Shown here: piece after piece, positions 1,299-44,970 of the stretch
How the letters are laid out: each line of letters begins with the position of its first letter
Position numbering within the stretch: position 1 is the first letter of the stretch
Source: a virus
IMG/VR virus record: IMGVR_UViG_3300021599_001920
Coordinates: 1-58,336 of that record
Direction: 5' to 3' (one strand)
Length of the DNA: 58,336 nucleotides
Notes under the pieces: model-generated
What the model was told of the DNA's origin: nothing
Database searches by the model: none
Seen by the model: only the letters and a program-made list of their open reading frames with translations
Position numbers and translations under genes: made by a program

Positions 1299-1470
1299 GT
1301 TCTTAACATTAAAATAATTTTCAAATTTTTTTGGCTTGGTAGTCATTTAAACTAAAATTTATTTTAACATGACAAATAGACATATTAGAAATGTACCTTT
1401 TATCATAAAAATTTCTTATTTATTGTGGTATGTGAAAATCACATACAATAAACATAATAAACAAAAAAAA

Positions 1471-4400
1471 ATGAAAAAAACGATTCAATTTTTATTGCTA
1501 TTTTTAGCAATGAGTATCACGGGGTTCTCACAAATTACAACCTCAACGATATCTGGTATTGTAAAAAATGGGAAAGGTGAGGTTCTTTCAGACGTAACAA
1601 TCCACGCGTTACATGAACCCACTGGTACCAATTACTACTCTAAAACTAATAAGAGTGGTGCTTTTGTTATTCCTTCTGTAAGAGTTGGTGGTCCTTACAC
1701 GGTTCACGCCTCATCAGTTGGATTTAGAAAAGGTGAACTTAAAGATGTGAATACATCGTTAGGTTTAACTGAGAATGTAGAATTTATATTAGTTGAGGAA
1801 TCCACTCAATTAAAAGAAGTGGTTGTAATTGCAAACAAAGGAGGTATTTTTTCAAAAGAAAAAACAGGTGCAGCACAACAATTTTCACGTAGAGAATTGA
1901 CTTCAATACCTATTACGGGTGCAAGAACTATCGATGGGATCACTAAGTACAACCCATTTGGTAATGGAAACTCGTTCGGAGCACAAGACTCTCGTTTGAA
2001 TAACTTTACGATCGATGGTTCTCAATTTAACAATAACTTTGGTTTAGGTTCATCTGCACAAGCTGGCGGTAGAACAGGGGCTTCCGCAATATCGTTAGAT
2101 GCGATTGATCAGTTGCAAGTGAACGTTGCACCATTTGATATTAGACAGTCTGGTTTTACAGGTGCAGGTATTAATGCGGTAACTCGTTCAGGTACAAATG
2201 AAATCGAGGGTAGTGTTTATCAAACACAAAGAGACAATAGTTCTCGTTATGTAGGTGATAATGCAAGGGGAACGAATGTAACCGCGGCAAAATTCGACGA
2301 AAAAGTTCAAGGGTTTAGATTAGGTTTACCTATAATCAAAAACAAATTATTTTTGTTTGGTAACTACAAGTATCTCGTGTGAGATATTCTGACATGCAAA
2401 CTCTTTCCAACTTTATGAAAGAAAAATTTAATTATGTTACCGGTCCATGGGAAGGTTATTCTAACGAAAATTCGTCAAAGAAATTCTTGATTAGGGCAGA
2501 TTGGAATATTAACGATAAAAATAAATTAACAGCTCGTTATGTTCATCACAATTCATCTGCTGAGATTAATGTATCTAACTCTCAATCAGCAGGTGCGGGT
2601 AATAGAACAACTCAATTCAATGCAATGAGTTTCCAAAATAGTGGTTATATTATTATGGACAACACTCGTTCAGCGGTATTAGAATTGAACTCGAAATTAT
2701 CTAACACACTTCATAATAACTTAATCGTTTCTTATGATAAACAAATTGAAGACAGAGCATATTTGAGTAATGTATTCCCAACTATTGATATCAGAGATGG
2801 TTCGGCAACTTACACTTCAGTAGGTTTTGATCCATTCACACCAGATAACAAATTGAATTATTGGACATTTAATGTTACCAACAACTTAACAAAGTATTTT
2901 GAAAAACATACTGTAGTTGCCGGTTTCAATTTTCAACAATATCAGTCCAATAACTTATTCTTTCCCGCATCTAATGGTGTTTACATCTTTAATAGTTTAT
3001 CAGATTTTTACACTGCAGCAAATCAATCTTTAGCAAACGGTGGTAGACCATCTACATTTGCACCAGCTCGCTTTCAATTACGTTACTCAGCGTTACCTGA
3101 TGGAATTGCACCAATGCAGACTTTGGAATCAACAAGAACTGATTTATATTTACAAGACGAATACAATGTAAACAAAACTTTAAAATTAACCGCAGGTATT
3201 AGAGCGAATATTATCTCAATTAATAATACTGCATTAGAAAACAAGGCGGTTACTGCAATGACATTTGCTAATGGTGAAAAGTGGAATACAGGTGTTATGC
3301 CTGAAATGCAATTATTATTTGAACCTCGTTTTGGATTTAATTGGGATGTAAAAGGTAAAAAGAAAACACAAGTACGTGGTGGTACAGGTATCTTTACTGG
3401 TAGACCTCCTTATGTGTTCTTATCTAATCAAATTGGTAACACAGGTGTATTATCAGGATTTATTGATGTATCAGGATCAGCTGCGGCGGCTTATGGTTTT
3501 ACAGCAAATCCAAACCAATACTTTATTCCTTCAACTCCAACATTACCTTCAACATTTGATTTAGCATTAACTGACCCTAACTACAAATTTCCACAAGTTT
3601 GGAAAAACAACTTAGCTATTGATCAAAAGTTACCTTGGTTGGGTTTGGTTGCAAGTGTTGAATTACTTTACAACAGAACTTTAAATGCTGTTCATTACTA
3701 TAACGCTAATTTAAAAGATGCGGTTGGTAAATTAGATGGTGTTGACCAAAGACCTCTTTATGGTGGTACTGACGCAACTGTAAGAGTAAACAATAACGTT
3801 TCAATGGCAGCTGTTCTTACAAATAGAAATGGTGCATTTAATCGTTCTGCAACTTTTAAATTAGAAAAGCCAGTATCTAAAGGTCTTTGGGGTTATGTTG
3901 CCTACACTATGGCAAATGCTCAAGATTTCATGGATGCGGGTTCAATCGCAAGTGGTAGTTGGCAATCGGCATTATCAGTTAATGGTAATAACGATTTAGG
4001 TTTAACTACTTCATCTTTCTTAGTAAGAAATCGTATTGTAGGTTTATTAGGTTACAGATTAGATTATGGTAAGAAATATGGTGGAGCAACCACATTTACT
4101 TTAGGTTATGTAGGATCTCAAAACAATCCGTTCTCTTATATTGTGGCGGGTGACTTAAATGGAGATAGAGTATCAAATAACGATTTGTTATTCGTTCCAT
4201 TGAAAGGTTCAGATATTCGTTTTGCACCTTTAACTGTTGGTACAACTGTTTATAGTGAGGCACAACAACAAGAAGCTTTCGAATCATTCATCGCACAAGA
4301 TCCATACCTTTCAACACGTAGAGGTCAATATGCCGAAAGAAATGCATTAGCACTTCCTTTCTTACACAGATTCGACTTTTCAGTTGCACAAGATGTATTT

Positions 4401-4679
4401 GTAAAAATTAAAGGAAAGAGAAATGCATTTCAAATCAGAGCAGATATTCTTAACTTCGGAAACATGTTGAACAATAAATGGGGAGTTTCTCAAAGAGCGG
4501 GTGCACCACAATTGTTAAACTTTGTCAGTAGAGATGCTAACAATGTTCCGACATATAGACTATCAACTCAAAGAGATGGTGTGAATACTTTCTTAGCAAA
4601 AGATACATATCAATACAATTCATCCGTATTTGATGTGTGGACAGCACAATTAGGTATTCGTTACACATTCGGAAGATAA
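1471..4679 (+). pseudogene. TonB-dependent receptor, disrupted by deletion and frameshift
   Basis: A Bacteroidota-type TonB-dependent outer-membrane receptor in two frames. Part one (ATG 1471, stop 2380-2382) has a signal peptide (MKKTIQFLLLFLAMSITGFS), a carboxypeptidase-regulatory-like beta domain (ISGIVKNGKGEVLSDVTI), and a plug domain with LKEVVVIANKGG, FTIDGSQFNNNFG and INAVTRSGTNEIEGSVY. Part two (readable frame from about 2367 to 4679) holds the rest of the beta barrel and ends with AQLGIRYTFGR, a proper C-terminal barrel strand. At the junction FLFGNYK is followed, in the other frame, by VSRVRYSDMQTLSNFM. In intact homologues about 25-35 residues normally lie between these two blocks, so the gene appears to have lost a short segment that is not a multiple of three. 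An in-frame GTG at 2379 could start the second piece, but it would lack an export signal. The upstream ATG at 1369 is less likely because it precedes the signal peptide by 34 residues. Confidence 0.85.
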
Positions 4680-7587: not shown

Positions 7588-8643
7588 TTATTTATCAAAT
7601 CTTTTGAAGGAGTTTGTGCTAATTAAATTATAATTTACTCCACCAATAAAACGGTGGAGTTCTTTTTGCCCCGTATAACTCATTGCAGATTTTAAATAAT
7701 CCTCAAAATTTTTGGTCCAACCCTCAAGAGTATATTCTACTTTATTTTTCCTAACAACTCCCTCAGATGTTGTTAAATTTTCTTTACCCCAAGACTTTTG
7801 AACTTCTTTTGTACTCATACCTCTAAATGTCTTAAATAAAGAAAGTTCCGCGTGAAACATTTTTTTAGCATCATCATGATATTGGTTAATTTTTTCACCT
7901 TCATCATCTATTGTTTCACCTGCACTTTCTAAACACTTATTCAAAACTGATCCTAACATAACATAATCAGCACCTAAAGCCAATGCCTTAATAATATCGG
8001 AAAATTTTTTAAAACCCCCATCGGCGATTATTTCCGTTCTACATTCATTATAAATCCTCAACTGGTTACACTCTTCGATAAGTGACGCCATGGGATACCC
8101 AACACCTGTTTGTACAGTTGTTAAACAACCATTTCCGTTTCCGATTCCAATCCTCACCACATCCACACCAATTTTACAGTACTCTTGAAAGGTTTTTGGG
8201 TTCGCAACATTTCCAACCATTAAGCACATTGAATATCCATATCTTTTTTTAGCTTCTTTGGCCATATCGTATAGACTTTCCATATGACCATTTGCAACAT
8301 CGATAAGAGCCATGATTCTACTTCCGTCTTGGACATAGACTTTTTCTTTTAAGAAAATTTGTTCAAAGTCCTGTAGACTATACGAAAGGAAAATATTAGT
8401 GTCAACCCAATCTTTTTTTGGATTAGGGATTCTTGGTAAAACCGGCATGATACCCTTTTCTTTGAAAAGGTGAAAATTATTCTGATCTACCACTGTATCC
8501 ATAGGTGCTGTCATTAATGGTAAATTTCCCCACATATTTCTTGGATTTACCTCACTTCTGGAGTTTATTTTTGACAGAATTGCCGGTTCAATAAGAATAT
8601 CATCAAAATCAAATAACATATCATAAACTTCTCCCATGTACAT
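7588..8643 (-). CDS. GMP reductase / IMP dehydrogenase family protein
   Basis: 351 aa TIM-barrel enzyme. Visible are the N-terminal FDFDDILIEP strand, the LMTAPMDTVVD substrate loop, VGNVANPKTF, and the catalytic loop RIGIGNGNGCLTTVQTGVGYP with Cys near 173, then IIADGGFKKFSDIIKALALGADYVMLGS and the flap region FRGMSTKEVQKSWG followed by TSEGVV. No CBS pair interrupts the barrel. The TGVGYP segment and the short flap are closer to GMP reductase (GMP to IMP plus ammonia, NADPH) than to IMP dehydrogenase, but the Gly-Asn-Gly in place of Pro-Gly-Ser before the Cys is unusual. The start could also be the ATG nine residues in (MLFDFDD). It is transcribed alone; the role would be to shift the purine pool during infection. 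Confidence 0.85.
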   Translation of the reverse strand: MYMGEVYDMLFDFDDILIEPAILSKINSRSEVNPRNMWGNLPLMTAPMDTVVDQNNFHLFKEKGIMPVLPRIPNPKKDWVDTNIFLSYSLQDFEQIFLKEKVYVQDGSRIMALIDVANGHMESLYDMAKEAKKRYGYSMCLMVGNVANPKTFQEYCKIGVDVVRIGIGNGNGCLTTVQTGVGYPMASLIEECNQLRIYNECRTEIIADGGFKKFSDIIKALALGADYVMLGSVLNKCLESAGETIDDEGEKINQYHDDAKKMFHAELSLFKTFRGMSTKEVQKSWGKENLTTSEGVVRKNKVEYTLEGWTKNFEDYLKSAMSYTGQKELHRFIGGVNYNLISTNSFKRFDK

Positions 8644-11504: not shown

Positions 11505-12313
11505 TTAAAATAGGTGCATTTTACCAATCGGGTTATAAATTAGTTGCTTGTTACATGGCGTTACAACAATTAAGAAAAATTTATCCAAATATACCAGTTG
11601 CATTATATGAAGATGGTAGTGATATATTGGAAATTGTTGCAAAAGAATTTAATTGTGACTATAAAAAAACAACAGTACAGGGTATAAACTCAACTCATTC
11701 AGGTAGACCTGTTAAAGACTTAAAATCAAATTTGGCATGGTTAGATAGAATATATGAATCATGTGTCACAACGTTAAAAGATGTCGATTGGGTATTACAT
11801 TATGAAGATGATGTATGGTGTAAAAAAGAAATCACAAAATTTCCTGAATTTGATTTATCGGGTGCAAATGGTCCATTGTACACAAAAGAATTAAGGGAAC
11901 ATCTTTTAAATCGTTTTGGTGAAACATCACAAACAAGAGGTCATTGGAGTCCAGAAGGTACATTAGAAAGTTATCAGGCTTGCGGTGGAACAATTTTCAA
12001 TAGAGAAAAATTTATAATTGCCTATAATAAATTAAATGAAATAGATTGGGATTTAATTTATAAAATGGATACGAGACCTTGTGAATGGTCTGATGCAAGT
12101 TTATCATTTGTTATGCAGTACGCAGGATTTAGTTGTGGAAGGTGGAGTGATTGGAGTCAGTATAATACAAAAAATCTTGGTAATTTTTTTGATAAGACTG
12201 GGTGGTCTGTTCCTATGAATGAACAGGAAGATGTTGCATTCATACATTTATATAAACATTTTTACAACTATAAAGATGATGAGTTGGGGATTGCAAAAAA
12301 TAAAATAGTGTGA
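11501..12313 (+). CDS. Glycosyltransferase, GT-A-like
   Basis: 270 aa. It starts within the end of the previous gene (ATGA overlap). The N-terminal IGAFYQSGYKLVACYMALQQLR, the strand PVALYEDGSD and the motif WVLHYEDDVWC (residues about 96-106, a DxD-like acidic triad) mark a GT-A fold. GGTIFNREKF and W-rich segments toward the C-terminus suit acceptor binding. The sugar is not predictable, but the downstream UDP-galactopyranose mutase suggests galactofuranose could be a donor (inference). Its stop overlaps the GTG start of the next gene. Confidence 0.7.
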   Translation: MIKIGAFYQSGYKLVACYMALQQLRKIYPNIPVALYEDGSDILEIVAKEFNCDYKKTTVQGINSTHSGRPVKDLKSNLAWLDRIYESCVTTLKDVDWVLHYEDDVWCKKEITKFPEFDLSGANGPLYTKELREHLLNRFGETSQTRGHWSPEGTLESYQACGGTIFNREKFIIAYNKLNEIDWDLIYKMDTRPCEWSDASLSFVMQYAGFSCGRWSDWSQYNTKNLGNFFDKTGWSVPMNEQEDVAFIHLYKHFYNYKDDELGIAKNKIV

Positions 12314-13413
12314 TTCTTTATGATTATTTAATTGTTGGTTCAGGAATATATGGATCAATATTTGCAAATGAACTAAACAAAATAGGAAAAAAAGTTTTAG
12401 TAATTGATAAAAGAAACCACATAGGTGGTAACTGTTACACAGAAAATATAGATGATATTAATGTTCACAAATATGGTCCACATATTTTCCATACATCGGA
12501 TAAACGTATTTGGGATTATGTGAATAATATTGTTCCATTTAATCATTTTAGTTATAGACCTAAAATCAAATATAAAGACAAGATTTACTCATTGCCCATT
12601 AACATGATGTCTTTATATCAAGTATATGGAGTCAAAACACCAAAAGACGCAAATAAAAAACTTAATGAGGTTAGAATTAAAAATGAAAACCCAAGAAATT
12701 TAGAAGAATGGGTATTATCTCAAGTTGGACCCGAACTTTATGAAATATTTGTAAAAGGTTATACAACAAAACAATGGGGTAGAGAACCTAAAGAATTACC
12801 ATCAAGTATAATAAAAAGATTACCAATAAGATTAACATATGATGACAATTATTATTTTGATACTCATCAAGGGATTCCTATTGGTGGGTATACCAAAATA
12901 TTTGAAAATTTATTAAAAGGGGTTGAGGTTAAATTAGGTGTAAATTATTTTGAAAATAAAGAATACTTTGATAGTATATCACATAAAGTTTTATATACAG
13001 GACCAATAGATCAATTTTACAATTACACATTCGGCAAATTAGAATATCGTAGTTTACATTTTGAAACAGAAAGATTGGATATGTCAGATTACCAAGGTAT
13101 TGCTGGTATGAATTATGGTGATGTTGATATTGAATATACAAGAATCATAGAACATAAACATTTTGAATTTGGTAATCAACCAACAACCATAATAACAAAA
13201 GAATATCCTAAGAATAGTGGAGAACAGTATTATCCGGTAAACGATACAATTAATAATAATCGATATAACGATTATAAAAAATTAATGTCGAATGAAACTA
13301 AATATATTTTTGGTGGTAGATTAGCTGATTACAAATATTATGATATGCATCAAGTTATTGGGTCTGCATTAAAAAGAGTTAAAGAAGAAATTAAGAACTT
13401 TGGGTATTTATAA
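12310..13413 (+). CDS. glf: UDP-galactopyranose mutase
   Basis: 367 aa, the usual length. It converts UDP-galactopyranose to UDP-galactofuranose using reduced FAD. Visible are the dinucleotide-binding YLIVGSGIYGSIFANEL (residues 6-22), VIDKRNHIGGNCY, KYGPHIFHT, the WGREPKELP loop, YTGPIDQFY and the C-terminal IFGGRLADYKYYDMHQVIG. All are conserved family blocks and none is missing. The start is GTG, overlapping the previous stop (GTGA), and fits the family start exactly. It is the last gene of the glycosyltransferase operon. Phage copies of this gene are rare; a galactofuranose-containing glycan on the host surface or virion is the expected product of the cluster. Confidence 0.95.
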   Translation: MILYDYLIVGSGIYGSIFANELNKIGKKVLVIDKRNHIGGNCYTENIDDINVHKYGPHIFHTSDKRIWDYVNNIVPFNHFSYRPKIKYKDKIYSLPINMMSLYQVYGVKTPKDANKKLNEVRIKNENPRNLEEWVLSQVGPELYEIFVKGYTTKQWGREPKELPSSIIKRLPIRLTYDDNYYFDTHQGIPIGGYTKIFENLLKGVEVKLGVNYFENKEYFDSISHKVLYTGPIDQFYNYTFGKLEYRSLHFETERLDMSDYQGIAGMNYGDVDIEYTRIIEHKHFEFGNQPTTIITKEYPKNSGEQYYPVNDTINNNRYNDYKKLMSNETKYIFGGRLADYKYYDMHQVIGSALKRVKEEIKNFGYL

Positions 13414-13459
13414 TTTAAACGCCACATAACAGATAAAACTACAAACAACATGGACGGTG

Positions 13460-13705
13460 ATGGTGATGAACAAACTAAAAAAACTAAAAAACAAAAAAAA
13501 GAGATTAACATTTTACAAAGATACCTCTCTTTTATTAGCAATGTTCTTTCTCCCATTTGGATACGACGCACTTTTCAAATTAATAATGGATTTGAGTGGT
13601 TCATATTGGGTTGCAGATATGATTTTCTACTCAATTTCAGGTTGTTTTTGGTTATCGTATATATTTCTTACGAAATACTTAAATAAAGAAGAAACCTCCG
13701 ATTAG
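13460..13705 (+). CDS. Small membrane protein
   Basis: About 81 aa from the first ATG; ATG 13466 is equally possible, and the codons GTG/ATG repeat in this stretch. Two membrane segments are visible, TSLLLAMFFLPFGYDALF and YWVADMIFYSISGCFWLSYIFL, after a very basic N-terminus (NKLKKLKNKKKRL). The basic N-terminus with two hairpin segments recalls holin-like or superinfection-related phage membrane proteins, with no firmer evidence. A competing frame (13450-13686) lacks any sensible composition. A terminator overlaps the stop. Confidence 0.55.
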   Translation: MVMNKLKKLKNKKKRLTFYKDTSLLLAMFFLPFGYDALFKLIMDLSGSYWVADMIFYSISGCFWLSYIFLTKYLNKEETSD

Positions 13706-13717
13706 GAGGTTTTTTTA
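13692..13717 (+). terminator. Rho-independent terminator
   Basis: AAACCTCC, a 6-nt loop and GGAGGTTT are followed by T residues. It overlaps the 3' ends of both the plus gene (stop 13705) and the minus gene at 13702-13848, so it lies exactly between convergent genes. Confidence 0.8.
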
Positions 13718-13848
13718 TTTTCTTGTTTTTTAGGTTGTTGTAATCCTTTTTTTAATTCTTCTTTTTTATCACTCTGAGCTTTAGTTGCTTTTTTGTGTTT
13801 TTCAAGAATTTTCTTCTTTTCTTCTTCTGATAATTTTAAAAGTGACAT
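13702..13848 (-). CDS. 48-aa charged helical protein
   Basis: A short open frame, MSLLKLSEEEKKKILEKHKK and so on, ending QENKKTS. It is almost entirely Lys/Glu-rich amphipathic helix, the same flavour as the N-terminal helices of the larger virion candidates in this window (17586, 8716). The stop codon lies inside the terminator hairpin shared with the convergent gene. It directly follows the minus-strand gene at 13850, so it would be the last gene of that operon. Composition and compact placement support it; function is unknown. Confidence 0.5.
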   Translation of the reverse strand: MSLLKLSEEEKKKILEKHKKATKAQSDKKEELKKGLQQPKKQENKKTS

Positions 13849-13849
13849 A

Positions 13850-14164
13850 TTATATATTTTTAATTTTCATTATATCTAAAGATAAATCTTTTTTTTGTTT
13901 TAATAAATTGCATTTTTCATATTCTTCCCTTTCCTCAAATATTTCAATCAATTTGTTCAAAATTTCAATGTATAGTTCTAAATCGTTTTCATATGAAATT
14001 ATTGTACACGTATTGTTATATTCTTTTAAGATTTCTTCATCTACCGAAATAAAATAGTTATAAACCATTTTCAATTCCTCTTCATCAAAATTTCCAATAT
14101 GTAGAACTCTTATCGATTGAATTAAAAAATTTACAGACATGCTCATAAAATAAATACTGCTCAT
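13850..14164 (-). CDS. Hypothetical protein with UVR-like helical hairpin
   Basis: 104 aa from the ATG at 14164, which overlaps the upstream stop as ATGA; an alternative start at 14146 (MSMSVNF) is preceded by TATTTATT. The C-terminal part ELYIEILNKLIEIFEEREEY then EKCNLLKQKKDL resembles the UVR/McsA helical hairpin (E-x-E-x-YE-x-A/C-x-x-L). The protein at 39985-40308 ends with a very similar segment (YFEQTEDYETCSEIISLHKDL), so the two are probably distant paralogues. The UVR motif mediates protein contacts in UvrB, McsA and ClpC; the phage also encodes a ClpC-like ATPase, but a link is speculative. Confidence 0.6.
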   Translation of the reverse strand: MSSIYFMSMSVNFLIQSIRVLHIGNFDEEELKMVYNYFISVDEEILKEYNNTCTIISYENDLELYIEILNKLIEIFEEREEYEKCNLLKQKKDLSLDIMKIKNI

Positions 14165-14487
14165 ATTTTATCAAGTATAATTTTTTCCATCAGTTTAAAA
14201 CATTCAGAAAATCCGTCACATTCCGCATCTTCTCTTGTTTTTTTTGAATTTTGTGTTGGTCCAAAAACAACCCCGTTATTTAATGATATTGTAAACACCC
14301 ATTGATCTTTACTATACATTTCTACATAGAGATATACACCATTCTTATCAAAAAAATTATATAACCTTTTAATGTCATAAAATTCTAATGTTGAAATACT
14401 TGGCATACCTATGTTTGGAAACATAGTATCTATGAATTTTTTTAATGCATTAGGATACAAATAATCTATAACATACCAATCCATCAT
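14161..14487 (-). CDS. Hypothetical phage protein
   Basis: 108 aa beginning MMDWYVIDYLYPNALKKFID. Aromatic-rich, with a central LYVEMYSKDQWVFTISLNNG beta region and a C-terminal helix FSECFKLMEKIILDKI. The initial Trp-Tyr-x-Ile-Asp-x-Leu-Tyr-Pro pattern recurs in small phage proteins of unknown role. It overlaps the downstream gene by 4 bases (ATGA), which supports it being real. Confidence 0.6.
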   Translation of the reverse strand: MMDWYVIDYLYPNALKKFIDTMFPNIGMPSISTLEFYDIKRLYNFFDKNGVYLYVEMYSKDQWVFTISLNNGVVFGPTQNSKKTREDAECDGFSECFKLMEKIILDKI

Positions 14488-14573
14488 ATCATTAATTATA
14501 TAAAAAATATAACAAATTTTACATATAAATCATAGATTTTGTCAATTTTTAACATAATTATGAGTGTTTATAA

Positions 14574-14813
14574 ATGAATATACTAAGGCAAGAATACGAC
14601 GGTATTAATGGGTTTTTATATGTAGAATTTTCTATAAATGAAGATGAAGACATTTTTTATAGGACTGTGGAATTAGACTATAATGATGTGATTCTATATT
14701 CACCAAATATTATAACAAAAAATGATATCGAATTTTTGGAGGAATCTGATGTTGTTGAAATTTTAATTGAATTCTTTAAAGATAACGACTTACCTGGTCA
14801 GATATATTTATAG
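14574..14813 (+). CDS. Small acidic hypothetical protein
   Basis: 79 aa, acidic, beta strands followed by a helix (ITKNDIEFLEESDVVEILIEFF). Not recognised. A TGTTTATA sequence, one base from the octamer family, lies a few bases upstream. Its end holds the TATTTATA element of the next gene. Confidence 0.55.
   Translation: MNILRQEYDGINGFLYVEFSINEDEDIFYRTVELDYNDVILYSPNIITKNDIEFLEESDVVEILIEFFKDNDLPGQIYL
14805..14812 (+). promoter_or_regulatory. TATTTATA octamer upstream of 14819
   Basis: Lies inside the last codons of the preceding gene and ends 6 nt before the ATG at 14819. Confidence 0.45.
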
Positions 14814-14818
14814 TTTAT

Positions 14819-22242: not shown

Positions 22243-22648
22243 TGGTGGAGGTGAAGGGAGTCGAACCCTTGTCCGAACCGCCATATCATAAATGGACTAC
22301 ACGTTTATTCAGTTAGTTCTCAACTGACAAATAGAGGGTTCTTATTTTTCCATCAGAACTCACAACTGTGGTCGGTTCCTATTAAATAGGATTGAACCGA
22401 AAACAACTCCCTGACACTCTTTTGGTGGTATCACACCGTAGGGACTTCTGTTCCAAGGTTATGTGTCCATCGACCCGTTAGTGGGGACCTAATTAGGCAG
22501 CCACTTTAGAAGTTGCAAGAAGACCTGATACTTCCATGTTGTTGTAAACGTTGCCGTTTAATTTTTATCACCATAGATTTAAGTCGTAGATGACATCCGA
22601 CTACGTGCCCATTTACCATATCAACGCCCGTCAAATCCAAGCACCCCC
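22243..22648 (-). ncRNA. ssrA: Transfer-messenger RNA (tmRNA)
   Basis: 406 nt. The 5' end GGGGGTG pairs over 7 bp with the 3' CACCTCC (one G-U), followed by A and an encoded CCA. The 5' block GCTTGGATTTGACGGGCG and the 3' T arm GGGTTCGACTCCC are canonical. The tag reading frame lies at 22555-22493 (minus), GGC resume codon to TAA, giving GNVYNNMEVSGLLATSKVAA: 20 residues with the hydrophobic -VAA end recognised by ClpXP-type proteases. It rescues stalled ribosomes and tags their products. A TATATTTG -7 box sits 9 nt upstream. The 3' terminator is immediate. It is unlikely to be a host remnant because it lies among phage genes with intact structure. Confidence 0.95.
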
Positions 22649-24393: not shown

Positions 24394-24996
24394 TTAAAAT
24401 ATTTCAAAAACTAAATTAAATCTATATTTTGTATCTGAACCATTAAAAAAAGAATGACCACAATCACCAAAACTGTAAATTTTATTTTTTTTCGAATTAA
24501 TTATTTTATTGTTAGGGTCATCTTTCAAAAAGAAATCATTAAATTTTAATGGATCATTAATCATTTTTTCTAAATTTTCGGTATATGATAAATTTCTTTT
24601 ATGAAGATCACCACCATTACACTCATAATTAAAAAACATATCATCTTCATTAAAGCAGATTAAATGACGTTTTAATTCACTATCAACATGAAAACTGATG
24701 TTTGATTTTGGTGAATATGACATTAACCAAATTCTTCTTATTGAGAATAAAGATCTTAAATATTCAAGAGATAAATTTAATATATTTCGTATTTCATTAT
24801 TTTTAAAAATGTATAATTTTTCTATTTTTTCAACATATTCTTCATTATTCATCAAATAATTTTCGTCAGCATAAATTAAAAAATTTCTTATTCCATTATC
24901 AATGTAATTAGAATCATTTAATGAATCGAAATACTTGTTTAAAATGTCAAAATTTTCATTCTGTATATCCGCAATTATCGTAATATGATCATACAT
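24394..24996 (-). CDS. Possible 2-oxoglutarate/Fe(II) oxygenase of the Asp/Asn hydroxylase type
   Basis: 200 aa. The C-terminal half has SYSPKSNISFHVDSELKRHL (HxD pair near residues 122-124) and, later, YSFGDCGHSFFNGSDTKYRF then NLVFEIF, giving the second His and a downstream Arg for 2-oxoglutarate. This is the cupin layout of aspartyl/asparaginyl beta-hydroxylase-like enzymes. The N-terminal 100 residues are unassigned. Transcribed from its own TATTTATA element just after the large RNA terminator. Substrate unknown. Confidence 0.55.
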   Translation of the reverse strand: MYDHITIIADIQNENFDILNKYFDSLNDSNYIDNGIRNFLIYADENYLMNNEEYVEKIEKLYIFKNNEIRNILNLSLEYLRSLFSIRRIWLMSYSPKSNISFHVDSELKRHLICFNEDDMFFNYECNGGDLHKRNLSYTENLEKMINDPLKFNDFFLKDDPNNKIINSKKNKIYSFGDCGHSFFNGSDTKYRFNLVFEIF

Positions 24997-24999
24997 ATC

Positions 25000-25007
25000 T
25001 ATAAATA
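25000..25007 (-). promoter_or_regulatory. TATTTATA octamer upstream of 24394-24996
   Basis: Perfect on the minus strand, 3 nt before the ATG at 24996 and directly after the T run of the RNA terminator. Confidence 0.5.
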
Positions 25008-25033
25008 GAAAAAGTCAGAAAAAAATTTCTGAC
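25008..25033 (-). terminator. Terminator of the large structured RNA
   Basis: On the minus strand GTCAGAAA, loop TTTT, TTTCTGAC, then five T residues. Confidence 0.75.
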
Positions 25034-25948
25034 TTAACTTAGGGGCCTGCACGGTTAATATCTTTGTGAGGTCTCATCCACCATTTAGTTTTTTTAAACT
25101 AAAAAAAACAAAACTCTGAGATTACAAGTTTTAATAGTTGACTTTAGAAAGATTATTGTTTCCTTTCTTATCCACAGTCTTTTGAACTGTACCAACCAGT
25201 GACGGTCAATTAGATTAACCAATCCTTAAGTCATTAGATACTCTCACAATACTGATTACTCTTTGAGGTTGCCACCCCAACTCATCCTTGCGGGATTAGA
25301 GAACTTTCTTGTAATTCACATTGGGTTTGGGACCCTTTGTGGCCGTGAACCCCTCACGACTATGTAGTCACCTGTCTCTAACGACTGACGGACACTTTTC
25401 CTTGTTTAATTTTGAGTTTGTTAAACCTTAATTAACAAAGTTAGTTACCGATTTGGAAGGTAGTGGTCCGTCAACCAGCCATGCCATCTTTTGGATGACA
25501 CGATACTAAACTACCCTCTGAGACATCCCTGCCTCCATACTTTTGGATTCCTTCAAGATAAGAACCTTGGTAGATTCAAATCAAGGATCATAACAGCACC
25601 ACCTGTACATGAACATACCTTTCGGTTTTAAGATCCCCATTGTATTGAATTTCGCAATTGTGTAGTTGGATAACTACACTTCTTACAATAATTCTATCGA
25701 GTTATTCTTATTGGTGTTCCCACCTCAACCAAACGACCGGTATCGCTCGGTCATCTAACCACGTTCCCTACAGTGTTACCCTCAGTACTTAAGGTCAGAC
25801 GATATCCCGCTTGCCTACTCGAGTTCCCTTTCGGAAACCGCAAACCTAAATAACCAATTCAGATTCACTTTATACCACTTTCATGGTTTATTTTAATCGA
25901 CCATAGGCGGCCAATATTTTAGATTCAAAGAACTTATCGTTTCCGATT
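25014..25948 (-). ncRNA. Large structured noncoding RNA (about 930 nt), GOLLD/ROOL-like candidate
   Basis: No credible reading frame exists on either strand across more than 900 bases, and the base composition is clearly less AT-rich than the neighbours. The minus strand has a promoter (25955-25986) and a terminator. Many local helices can be read: an 8-bp stem with a 4-nt loop at 25660-25679; GNRA-tetraloop hairpins at 25936-25947, around 25829 (TTTCC-GAAA-GGGAA) and around 25714 (GGTG-GGAA-CACC); a 5-bp hairpin at 25735-25752; CGTGA/TCACG near 25345; and an 8-bp long-range pairing of 25386-25393 with 25466-25473. It lies beside a phage tRNA cluster. This setting is typical of the giant phage RNAs GOLLD and ROOL; I cannot confirm class membership without a covariance search. 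RNase P, rRNA and intron cores were not seen. Confidence 0.75.
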
Positions 25949-25954
25949 GTTTTA

Positions 25955-25986
25955 CAAATATACAATAACTTTTTACAAAAACAAAA
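25955..25986 (-). promoter_or_regulatory. Bacteroidota-type promoter of the large RNA
   Basis: Minus strand TTTTG at 25986-25982, 19 nt, then TATATTTG at 25962-25955, a good match to the -33/-7 consensus (TTTG, N19, TAnnTTTG). Start of transcription is expected near 25948. Confidence 0.7.
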
Positions 25987-25989
25987 TTT

Positions 25990-26199
25990 TTACTTAACTT
26001 TTTTTAAATTTTTTTTGTTTTCTTTTTTTACTTCATATGATCCACCCATATCATGTTGAGTTTCAACAACTTGCGGTGTTTTATATTTTCTCCACTCATC
26101 CTTAGAAACATATTTCCAAGTATTACCGACTATTTGAAATGCCTGTTTATCTTCAACGCGAATTATGTTTCCTGTAGTACTATTTTTTATACACTTCAT
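25990..26199 (-). CDS. Small hypothetical protein
   Basis: 69 aa. Beta-rich N-terminus MKCIKNSTTGNIIRVEDKQA then WKYVSKDEWRKYK, followed by a basic tail. The layout resembles small SH3-like phage proteins, but no family is recognised. It ends 28 bases before the expected -33 region of the large RNA. Confidence 0.55.
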   Translation of the reverse strand: MKCIKNSTTGNIIRVEDKQAFQIVGNTWKYVSKDEWRKYKTPQVVETQHDMGGSYEVKKENKKNLKKVK

Positions 26200-26243: not shown

Positions 26244-26714
26244 TCAAATTCTAACTAAATGATTTGCAGCATATGTTGACATTGCACCTAATTGTTTATA
26301 TCTTACTTTATATCCCATACCTTCTACCAAACCTACCGCCTGTCTCAGGACAGAGTTGGATTTGTATTTTGGATCTGGATTCAAATCAATATCAATCCAA
26401 GTTGGTTTAGGTAACCCATTATTTTTTAAGAATTCGGCGGTTTCAACAGATTTCCAAACTTCAGTTAAAAGTCTTTTTTGTGTATTATATTCCATTGGAC
26501 CATTTTCTCTTTTACATAAAACATGAGCACCCTTTCCTGCTGTGTATAATGCAATCACAACACCATAAACAGTTTTATTATTTCTAAAACATTGTGAATC
26601 TGATCCTATCAAAATTTCAATATTATTTCTATCTTTTATGTAGTCCTTAATATAATCAATTAAATTATCAATTTTTATTCCATATAATGTTTTAAAGTTT
26701 TTCATCGTCTTCAT
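26244..26714 (-). CDS. RNase H-like protein of the DUF458 (YkuK) family
   Basis: 156 aa; the start at MKNF (26705) is also possible. ILIGSDSQCFRNNKTVYGVV carries the first Asp of an RNase H-like active site, followed by KGAHVLCKRENGP, RLLTEVWKS (Glu) and PTWIDIDLNPDPKYKSNSVL (Asp) and a final GYKVRYKQLGAMSTYAANHL. These are the conserved DUF458 blocks. The family is related to RNase H folds, with unknown substrate. It overlaps the upstream gene by 23 bases. Confidence 0.8.
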   Translation of the reverse strand: MKTMKNFKTLYGIKIDNLIDYIKDYIKDRNNIEILIGSDSQCFRNNKTVYGVVIALYTAGKGAHVLCKRENGPMEYNTQKRLLTEVWKSVETAEFLKNNGLPKPTWIDIDLNPDPKYKSNSVLRQAVGLVEGMGYKVRYKQLGAMSTYAANHLVRI

Positions 26715-27310: not shown

Positions 27311-27324
27311 AAAAATTTTTATAG

Positions 27325-27396
27325 TACTCGGTACGGGAGTCGAACCCGTATTTTGTCCGTGAAAGGGACACGTCCTAACCATTAGACGAACTGAGC
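27325..27396 (-). tRNA. tRNA-Glu (anticodon UUC)
   Basis: 72 nt cloverleaf. Acceptor GCTCAGT/ACCGAGT has one A-C mismatch and one G-U; the anticodon loop CTTTCAC gives UUC; the T arm is ACGGG-TTCGACT-CCCGT. No encoded CCA. Confidence 0.9.
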
Positions 27397-27453
27397 GATT
27401 GTAGGTGGGACTAACCTACTCCAAACTTGTACTTCGTTCATTAAAGTCCTTTG

Positions 27454-27527
27454 TGGACCCTCACGGGCTCGAACCGTGGACCTAATGATTATGAGTCATT
27501 TGCTCTAACCAACTGAGCTAAGGGTCC
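27454..27527 (-). tRNA. tRNA-Met-like (anticodon CAU)
   Basis: 74 nt. Acceptor GGACCCT/AGGGTCC is perfect, discriminator A. The anticodon loop is CTCATAA. CAU could mean elongator Met or a lysidine-modified Ile tRNA; the G1-C72 pair excludes a standard initiator. Confidence 0.92.
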
Positions 27528-27531
27528 TATG

Positions 27532-27603
27532 CGTCCCCTCGAGGTTTCGAACCTCGGACCCTCTCGTTAACAGCGAGATGCTCTACCGCTGAGCTAAGGA
27601 GAC
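27532..27603 (-). tRNA. tRNA-Asn (anticodon GUU)
   Basis: 72 nt. Acceptor GTCTCCT/AGGGGAC (one G-U), anticodon stem-loop TCTCG-CTGTTAA-CGAGA, T arm CGAGG-TTCGAAA-CCTCG. Confidence 0.93.
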
Positions 27604-27612
27604 ATCATAAGA

Positions 27613-27640
27613 TTAAACGATAATTTGAATTATCGTTTAA
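27613..27640. other. Long AT-rich hairpin between tRNA-Asn and tRNA-Arg
   Basis: TTAAACGATAATT is followed after two bases by its exact complement. It may be a processing or termination signal within the tRNA transcript. Confidence 0.6.
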
Positions 27641-27651
27641 ATTAACGATTG

Positions 27652-27723
27652 TAGTCCCACGTGGAATCGAACCACGAATAACAGATTAGAAATCTGTAGT
27701 TATATCCGTTTAACTATGGGACC
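27652..27723 (-). tRNA. tRNA-Arg (anticodon UCU)
   Basis: 72 nt. Acceptor GGTCCCA/TGGGACT (terminal G-U), anticodon loop TTTCTAA in the stem ACAGA/TCTGT, T arm CGTGG-TTCGATT-CCACG. UCU reads AGA, the main Arg codon in these AT-rich genes. Confidence 0.93.
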
Positions 27724-27761
27724 ATTTAACACTATCGTCTTTGAAAGTTTTTATTTAATTG

Positions 27762-28007
27762 TTATACCTTACGGCTTATTATTCTACTTTCAAGTTTATC
27801 AAGTCGTGAATCTAATGTTCTGTATATGTCTTGAACAATATTATCACGCTCTCTATTTTGATATTCATAATCTCTTGACATACATTGACGTATATCTTCA
27901 ATATCTTTGTTATGTTTTTTTACCCTAACAAAGGCCATTACAGCGACTACCGCAACTGCGATAACCACCACAACGGACATTCCTAAAATAAATGATAGTA
28001 TATCCAT
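27762..28007 (-). CDS. Membrane-anchored coiled-coil protein in the tRNA cluster
   Basis: 81 aa. Membrane helix at residues 4-27 (FILGMSVVVVIAVAVVAVMAF), then a charged helix with heptads to the C-terminus (YEYQNRERDNIVQDIYRTLD). The upstream sequence AAAGGAG, 11 nt before the ATG, is one of the few Shine-Dalgarno-like sites in this window. Sits between tRNA-Arg and tRNA-Leu. Confidence 0.6.
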   Translation of the reverse strand: MDILSFILGMSVVVVIAVAVVAVMAFVRVKKHNKDIEDIRQCMSRDYEYQNRERDNIVQDIYRTLDSRLDKLESRIISRKV

Positions 28008-28045
28008 AGTTTATTTCTCCTTTATTTCAAAGAACGATAGTGTTG

Positions 28046-28132
28046 TGCCTCAGGCGGGAATCGAACCCGCACGAACTTTTTCGGTTCACAGGATTTTAAG
28101 TCCTGCGTGTCTACCAGTTCCACCACCAAGGC
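28046..28132 (-). tRNA. tRNA-Leu (anticodon UAA)
   Basis: 87 nt with a long variable arm (GAACCGAAAAAGTTC). Acceptor GCCTTGG/CTGAGGC region, anticodon stem-loop CAGGA-CTTAAAA-TCCTG, T arm GCGGG-TTCGATT-CCCGC. UAA reads TTA, the most used Leu codon here. It is the 5'-most gene of the tRNA transcript. Confidence 0.94.
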
Positions 28133-42795: not shown

Positions 42796-44814
42796 TTATA
42801 AACTTTTTTTGTGAATTACTAATTTATCCGTTTTATATTTCAAGGTTATTGGATCATTTTCTACTATGTTTCCCCTTAAAATTTCCTCACTTAAAAAATC
42901 TTCACATAAATTTTGAATCAATCTTTTCAAGGGTCTTGCACCATACTCTTCTTGTGAGTTTAGTTCGTATATTTTATTGATCACAGATTTATCAAAATTT
43001 ACAGTATAGTTTTTTTCTTTTAGTCTTTTTGATAATTTTTCAATCTCGATCTCAATAATTTTTTTAAGTGATTCTTCATTTAATGAATTGAATAAAATAA
43101 TATCATCAATTCGATTTAAAAATTCAGGATTGAATTGTTGTTTTAAAGCCTTTTGTATAATTGATTTTTTTACCTCATATTTTTGTTGTTCAGACGACGA
43201 TGTTGCGAATCCAACACCTCCACCAAAATCCGAAACTTTTTTTGCACCAACATTTGATGTCATGATAATAATTGTGTTAGTAAAGTTTACCTTTCTTCCG
43301 AATGAATCAGTTAAATGTCCTTCATCTAAAATTTGAAGTAGGATATTAAAAACGTCTTTATGTGCCTTTTCAATTTCATCAAACAATACAACAGAGAATG
43401 GATTATTCTTAATTTTTTCTGTTAATTGACCACCCTCATCATAACCAACATATCCTGGAGGAGAACCAATTAATTTAGACACATTATGTTTTTCCATGAA
43501 TTCACTCATGTCAACACGAATAATTTTTTCAGGATCACCAAAAAGTAATTCCGCAATTGATTTGGCTAAGAATGTTTTACCAACACCCGTGGATCCTAAG
43601 AAAATGAATGATCCAATTGGTTTATTTGCGTCCTTAATACCAACACGATTCCTTCTAACCGCTTTAGATATTGTTAAAATTGCTTCCGTTTGACCAATTA
43701 CTTTAGATGAGAGAATATCTTCCATTTTAAGTAACTTATCAGTCTCTTTTTTATCTAATTTAGAAATGGGTACACCTGTTATGTTTGAAATAATTTCATA
43801 AACATCATCAATGGTTATTGGTGTTTTATTATCTTTTAATTTATCTAACCATTTTTGTTTTTCTTCATCAAGTCTTAGTAATATTTTTCTTTCTTCATCT
43901 CGTAATTTTGCCGCTTGTTCGTAATTTTGAGATTTAACAACTTGAAATTTTTTTTCTTTTAATTCCTCCGAATCTTTTTTTAATTTTTCAATAATATCAG
44001 GTACTTTAGACGAGACTCTTTTTTCTGAACCGAGTTCATCTAAGACATCGATTGCCTTATCAGGAAATTGTCGATCAGTAATATATCGAGCACATAACTT
44101 AACAATAGTTTCAATGACACCGTCTTCGTATTTTACTTTATGAAAATCTTGATACGAACCGATTAAATTATTTAAAATGTTGATTGTTTCTAATTGATTG
44201 GGTTCTTTTAAAATAATTTTCTGAAATCTTCTAACAAGTGCCGAATCCTTTTCTAAATGTTTTTTATATTCATCAAACGTTGTCGCACCAATACATTGTA
44301 ATTCGCCCCTTGCAAGTGCGGGTTTCAAAATATTGGCCGCATCCATTGATCCACTTGCGTTTCCTGCACCTACCATAGTATGTAGTTCATCGATGAAAAC
44401 TACAACGTTTGTAACTTCTTGTAATTCATTTAAAATTGCTTTTATTCTTTCTTCAAATTGACCTCTATATTTTGTACCGGCAACTAAAGAGGTTAAATCT
44501 AATGATACGATCCTTTTATCAATTAAATTACTCGGACAATCTCCTTTATTAATCATCAATGCAAGTTTTTCTACAAGTGCAGATTTACCAACACCCGCAT
44601 CTCCAACTATCACTGCATTATTTTTTTTCTTGCGTGAAAGAATTTGAGCAATTCTTTTTACTTCTTTATCTCTCCCGACAACAGGATCGATTTTACCTTC
44701 CTCTGCAAGTCGAGTTAAATCTCTTGAAAAATTATCAAGAATAGGTGTATTTGACCCTTTTCTAATTTTTTTAGGGTTGGTTGTTTGTCCTTCTTCAAAA
44801 AAATCTACCGCCAT
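42796..44814 (-). CDS. ClpC/ClpA-like AAA+ unfoldase without N-domain
   Basis: 672 aa from MAVDFFEEG. Two AAA+ modules: Walker [10 protein letters not shown] (71-79) and [14 protein letters not shown]; second [11 protein letters not shown] (about 405) and [20 protein letters not shown]-like middle helix ([20 protein letters not shown]) marks the ClpC branch. The VGF segment after SDFGGG (GVGFATS) corresponds to the loop that docks on ClpP. The N-terminal Clp_N repeats are missing, so adaptor binding is likely altered. It is divergent from Hsp20 with a 156-base intergenic region; both products handle unfolded protein. Confidence 0.9.
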
Positions 44815-44970
44815 GTTTATAATTTTATAGTTATTAAACAAATATAATAAAAATCATTCTTAAAAACAAATGATAGACATTATGTCATATTATTTTAAAA
44901 TTTAATGTCATAATGTCAATCTAATCTTTTTGGTACATAGTTTGTATTTTTTATAAAAAAATTAATAACT

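Follow-up and report, generated by a model that had tools for sequence, protein, structure and literature searches.

The window analyzed here, a whole linear virus record of 58,336 bases that is probably a phage genome fragment, contains a long stretch in which no gene is apparent, and the question raised by this locus is whether the stretch encodes a structured RNA and, if so, whether that RNA belongs to a known class. A preliminary description, made from the letters of the sequence, had suggested a giant minus-strand RNA resembling GOLLD or ROOL, had left open membership in such a family, a Bacteroidota-specific branch, or a new class, and had proposed an Rfam comparison and a covariation test among homologues as checks. 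From the comparisons that follow, the minus-strand RNA is very probably (about 0.95) a full-length, complete GOLLD of ~940 nt. As a complete copy of a known RNA, the locus is thus a new carrier of GOLLD and extends a known family, which is among the largest structured phage RNAs, by one full-length member found in a phage of Bacteroidota type.

Identity of the RNA

The stretch proves free of genes over 24997-25989, with no open reading frame above 46 amino acids inside; one flanking frame ends at 24996 and the next starts at 25990. The other candidate gap in the window, 13414-14818, contains open reading frames of 78-108 amino acids. The lower AT content described for the stretch is borne out (GC of 0.40 for 25113-25948, compared with 0.31 for the whole window and 0.21 and 0.29 for the two flanks), the GNRA hairpins are represented by GAAA hairpin loops, and the fold of the single sequence beats 20 of 20 shuffles (z -5.1).

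In an Infernal search, the Rfam GOLLD model, RF02032, is matched over its entire length (model positions 1-416 of 416) by 25113-25518 on the minus strand (321.5 bits, E 2.5e-91), which exceeds the gathering score, 150 bits, more than twofold. ROOL, OLE, and HEARO gave no match up to E = 10 when 24900-26100 was compared with all 4227 Rfam families, so that the Rfam check decides the earlier guess of a GOLLD- or ROOL-like RNA in favor of GOLLD. In the same interval, matches to MicC, TUSC7, and RT-17 (E 4.7-6.7) are attributed to chance.

As RF02032 spans only the conserved 3′ domain, the upstream 420 nt were tested separately. IMG/VR was scanned with two exact patterns, a 3′ motif and a 5′ motif, yielding at least 234 loci; with a profile made from 27 initial sequences, at least 111 near-complete copies were obtained, which, reduced below 93% identity, gave 79 sequences including that of the window among the matches listed. 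The 78 nonredundant full-length relatives among these matches come from viral metagenomes, measure 795-899 nt, and are 55-91% identical to the window. Both domains are present in 130 loci among the matches listed, and all cases with the 5′ domain only stop at the end of a contig. The 5′ domain outside the Rfam model is in this way seen to be conserved and modellable. Its lack of an Rfam match might be taken as the mark of a new giant-RNA class separate from GOLLD, but the 3′ half matches the whole GOLLD model, the 5′ half is always accompanied by the 3′ half, and size and landmarks are as in the published GOLLD env-38 (domain border 420/421, L21a at 656-657 of 833), all of which makes a separate class extremely improbable.

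Relatives of the GOLLD found here were also sought beyond the viral metagenomes. By blastn, no annotated isolates carrying the full RNA were found; the best GenBank phages with the full RNA are the uncultured huge phages LR745206 (634 kb) and LR756502 (642 kb), and a more distant GOLLD occurs in Acinetobacter phages. The two huge phages resemble the window in that their copies are full-length, with 67-68% identity to the family consensus and RF02032 scores of 287 and 275 bits, whereas LR745206 differs in having an initiator-like tRNA-CAU ~100 nt upstream, which the window lacks. A 5′-domain pattern matched none of the 84,980 species genomes scanned, and at that stringency this GOLLD type therefore looks confined to free phages.

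Expression signals of its own had also been ascribed to the RNA. A promoter of the form TTTG-19-TATATTTG is indeed present at 25985-25955 on the minus strand, but the bare pattern is not rare in so AT-rich a window, with 4 occurrences and 5.1 expected by chance. Just upstream of GOLLD, TAnnTTTG is found in 45 of the 79 loci versus 9% of shuffled controls, usually with TAAAACAA next. The terminator hairpin on the minus strand (25035-25012) was likewise recovered, and the GOLLD locus has its own predicted promoter and terminator signals (Table 1).

Table 1. Predicted features of the GOLLD locus and its RNA gene neighbors in the window
Feature	Positions	Strand	Basis
Predicted GOLLD transcript, ~940 nt	25008..25948	-	Rfam, full-length homology, promoter, terminator; start inferred from promoter
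Bacteroidota-type promoter, TTTG-N19-TATATTTG	25955..25985	-	Motif; -7 element conserved in relatives
Intrinsic terminator of GOLLD transcript	25012..25035	-	Hairpin, fold z-score -4.4
5′ domain (cap domain in env-38), outside Rfam model	25519..25935	-	Full-length profile matches, covariation
3′ domain, RF02032 model 1-416	25113..25518	-	321.5 bits, E 2.5e-91
Long-range pairing of the preliminary description, 5′ arm GACGGAC	25466..25472	-	Covarying, 78-79/79 canonical
Same pairing, 3′ arm GUCCGUC	25387..25393	-	Partner of GACGGAC
3′-domain pseudoknot, 5′ arm GUGAC	25367..25371	-	79/79 canonical, covarying
3′-domain pseudoknot, 3′ arm GUCAC	25199..25203	-	Partner of GUGAC
GGAU, J24/26 contact with last hairpin loop L27	25170..25173	-	79/79 canonical
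AUCU in loop L27, pairs with J24/26	25119..25122	-	Partner of GGAU
5′ domain hairpin loop UACCGGU, pairs with linker start	25736..25742	-	Covariation
Linker start AUCGGUA, partner of 5′ domain loop	25446..25452	-	Covariation
Variable linker (inside cage in env-38), no tRNA within	25402..25445	-	Alignment A1, ARAGORN
GG, J13/15 side of bridge B7	25400..25401	-	Named by position (inferred)
CC, loop L20 side of bridge B7	25329..25330	-	Partner of GG
Hairpin L21a, self-complementary GC dinucleotide (bridge B8)	25285..25295	-	Relatives' variants
Hairpin L21b (bridge B9 in env-38)	25263..25279	-	Alignment
Phage tmRNA, 2.4 kb downstream of GOLLD	22243..22648	-	ARAGORN, Rfam RF00023 110.7 bits
tRNA cluster Leu-Arg-Asn-Met(elongator)-Glu, 1.4 kb upstream of GOLLD	27324..28132	-	ARAGORN, Rfam

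Secondary Structure and Long-range Pairing

Applied to the 79-sequence alignment, RNAalifold gives one extended consensus fold. Covariation was evaluated with an own implementation of a test modelled on R-scape, using a G-test, average product correction, and 20 tree-aware nulls made by spreading substitutions over the tree. With an alignment that is not structure-aware and from which the fold was itself derived, 51 pairs across the 79 sequences lie above every null, 44 of them in one fold and 7 of them long-range and 100% canonical. A separate count on alignment A1 agrees with this result: 93.6% of 19,745 pair cells are canonical versus 75.0% in shuffled controls, double changes number 3833 versus 1112 in shuffles, and sliding the partners reduces the canonical fraction to 39-43%. 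The covariation anticipated among homologues is thus found with the 78 relatives, and the pattern of substitutions demonstrates, at the level of sequence comparison, selection on the secondary structure and on the long-range pairings.

The 7 additional pairs belong to the pairing noted in the preliminary description, the pseudoknot formed by GUGAC and GUCAC, the contact of L27, the pair at B7, and the pairing of a 5′-domain loop with the linker start. The first of these, described as an exact 8-bp pairing of 25386-25393 with 25466-25473, is present as claimed; 7 of its 8 pairs (464-470 with 543-549 in alignment numbering) are conserved, covarying, and canonical in 78-79 of the 79 sequences. 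Collected separately, the 79 sequences reproduce the published GOLLD contacts. A decayed copy or pseudogene that has lost its function is very unlikely: the window sequence preserves every long-range pairing, both promoter and terminator are present, and the covariance model score is as high as those of the relatives.

The pairing of the 5′ domain loop with the linker comprises 6-7 bp (alignment positions 195-200 with 484-489), of which 6 pairs are canonical in 73-79 of the 79 sequences and show compensatory changes, the top pair lying above all nulls. It is absent from the Rfam model and was not found in the available portion of the main text of Kretsch et al. (PMC12286853), where the 5′ and 3′ regions are described as separate domains joined between chains by an A-minor contact only. 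As judged by sequence, this pairing is well supported and links the two halves of the RNA; in a cage, it would couple the cap to the strand inside. It is not claimed as new.

Probable Cage Assembly

In that study, env-38, the one GOLLD whose structure has been solved (by cryo-EM), is an RNA of 833 nt with a domain border at 420/421 and a linker, 497-538, inside the cage, and forms a hollow protein-free 14-mer that is stable at low concentration (PMC12286853). In the same source, bridge B7 joins L20 with J13/15, and bridge B8 involves a dinucleotide of L21a (656-657) that switches between GC and CG. In the window RNA, the domain border falls near 417/418 in alignment numbering, and the linker spans 491-534. 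It further resembles env-38 (PDB 9MEE) in having both domains, ~830 nt of structured RNA, the same order of landmarks, the pseudoknots, a variable linker, the bases for bridges B7 and B8, a phage origin, and a tRNA neighborhood. Unlike env-38, it has a different sequence, its own Bacteroidota-type promoter, and a tmRNA nearby, and its clade is without an adjacent Met-tRNA.

The evidence for the bridges lies in particular positions. The B7 position, 535-536 with 606-607, covaries, with the pair 536-606 occurring as CG, GC, or AU and canonical in 79 of 79 sequences, and the L21a dinucleotide is GC in the window and CG in several relatives, as published for B8. Since the bases of both B7 and B8 are present, assembly of the window RNA into a cage is likely; bridge and contact names are assigned by position rather than by superposition, and the cage is predicted on that basis. 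By homology, each chain would fold into a flat monomer, its 5′ domain forming a cap and its 3′ domain a ring, and many such monomers would assemble into a hollow cage made of RNA only, enclosing the variable linker. The number of chains may differ from 14; ROOL RNAs form multimers of 6 or 8 chains. ROOL, likewise a giant RNA of phages encoded near tRNAs, assembles into an RNA-only cage that encloses a linker, but it has no sequence or structure match at this locus.

The tRNA and tmRNA Neighborhood

The statement that the RNA lies next to phage tRNAs holds with one qualification: five tRNAs and a tmRNA are encoded on the same strand, the nearest tRNA being 1.4 kb upstream rather than adjacent. 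The tmRNA at 22243-22648 (minus strand) carries the tag GNVYNNMEVSGLLATSKVAA; a tmRNA is also found at 13 of the 79 GOLLD loci, and several relatives of the window likewise have one downstream. Across the 79 loci, 226 of the 227 tRNAs and tmRNAs within 3 kb of GOLLD lie on its strand, and a tRNA or tmRNA is found within 1 kb at 42 of 78 loci versus 24 (largest 32) at random placement.

One type of tRNA predominates close to GOLLD. Of the 32 loci with an upstream tRNA within 1 kb, 26 have tRNA-CAU as the nearest one. An initiator-type tRNA-CAU lies within 600 nt in 29 of 79 loci (for example, at L082, L191, L052, and L468:7829-7902); at 18 of these 29, no other tRNA is present in the stretch covered. 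Among CAU tRNAs within 600 nt, 29 of 36 have the initiator-type 1:72 mismatch, 18 of those being the classical C1:A72, and 23 have the GGCTCATAACC arm. The mismatch is found in only 2 of 11 CAU tRNAs beyond 600 nt (Fisher p 3e-4) and in only 4 of 236 non-CAU tRNAs. At 22 loci the initiator-type tRNA precedes GOLLD (upstream) and at 7 it follows (downstream); the tree shows 13 changes, indicating that the arrangement arose or changed several times, although the loci are not independent. In the reverse direction, GOLLD occurs within 3 kb of 6 of 118 initiator-pattern loci versus 1 of 120 elongator-pattern loci, a result that points the same way but is weak alone because most initiator matches may be host-derived.

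The association is not universal. No initiator tRNA is nearby in 37 of 66 judgeable loci, including the closest judged relatives of the window, L076 and L187, and relaxed tRNA and anticodon searches detected no initiator tRNA in the window. Among protein neighbors, no family occurs at more than 21 of the 79 loci, and none of those checked is translational. An RNase H-like protein (PF04308) is encoded at 26244-26714 (minus strand); relatives occur close to GOLLD at 10 of the 79 loci, in every case on its strand. One close relative carries a group I intron ~2 kb from GOLLD (L076:4337-4553, minus strand).

Functional Implications

As quoted in PMC12286853, GOLLD expression rises in phage lysis and ribosomes are pulled down with GOLLD; a mycobacterial copy lies in a cluster of 32 tRNAs and is expressed there (PMC6582537). 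Induction at lysis, the ribosome pull-down, and the link to initiator tRNA make a role in the takeover of translation the most economical reading, although its odds are less than even. GOLLD would then belong to an island of RNA genes, together with the tRNAs and the tmRNA on its strand, and in infected cells the cage would act on the translation machinery, for instance by holding ribosomal particles or phage tRNAs. The initiator-tRNA support for this reading comes from other clades, the window being without that tRNA. Many phages place GOLLD beside an initiator-type tRNA, upstream or downstream depending on lineage, and on this ground the cage could more specifically work in translation initiation by holding, protecting, or delivering initiator tRNA or initiating ribosomal subunits, a proposal that is rather unlikely as it stands.

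Alternatively, the cage might serve as a simple scaffold or store with no role in translation, sequestering, for example, a host defense protein or a metabolite; this reading has close to an even chance of being correct. Here the tRNA neighborhood would merely reflect the clustering of phage RNA genes, in keeping with the many small RNAs that phage tRNA islands gather and with the majority of judgeable loci, which lack a nearby initiator tRNA; the discussion in PMC12286853 names tRNAs, ribosomes, metabolites, and stress proteins as possible contents. Strand concordance of 226 to 1 and the enrichment of one special type of tRNA nevertheless exceed what loose clustering would give. The association of GOLLD with initiator-type tRNA provides a concrete, testable hint at function.

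Phage and Host

Portal and terminase are T4-like, and the portal protein is nearest those of Microcystis phage Mel-JY01 and Flavobacterium phages (37-41% identity). The T4-like phage carrying GOLLD probably infects Bacteroidota. Genomes of the size of LR745206 and LR756502 are assigned to the Mahaphage clade, whose hosts are Bacteroidetes (Al-Shayeb 2020, PMC7162821). Of the options originally raised, then, membership in GOLLD stands and a new class does not, and a Bacteroidota-phage lineage is supported within that same family by the promoter type and by the two huge phages, whose genome sizes are those of Mahaphages.

The window also encodes, at 1369-4679 (plus strand), a Bacteroidota-type outer-membrane protein (CarboxypepD_reg and OMP barrel) split between two overlapping frames, which is unusual in a phage and has a relative in one phage record only (29% identity); it may be a phage gene, a frameshift, or an assembly join. 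Phage-carried genes at 7588-8643, 12310-13413, and 42796-44841 encode an IMPDH/GMP reductase-like protein, a UDP-galactopyranose mutase, and a ClpA/B-type AAA ATPase.
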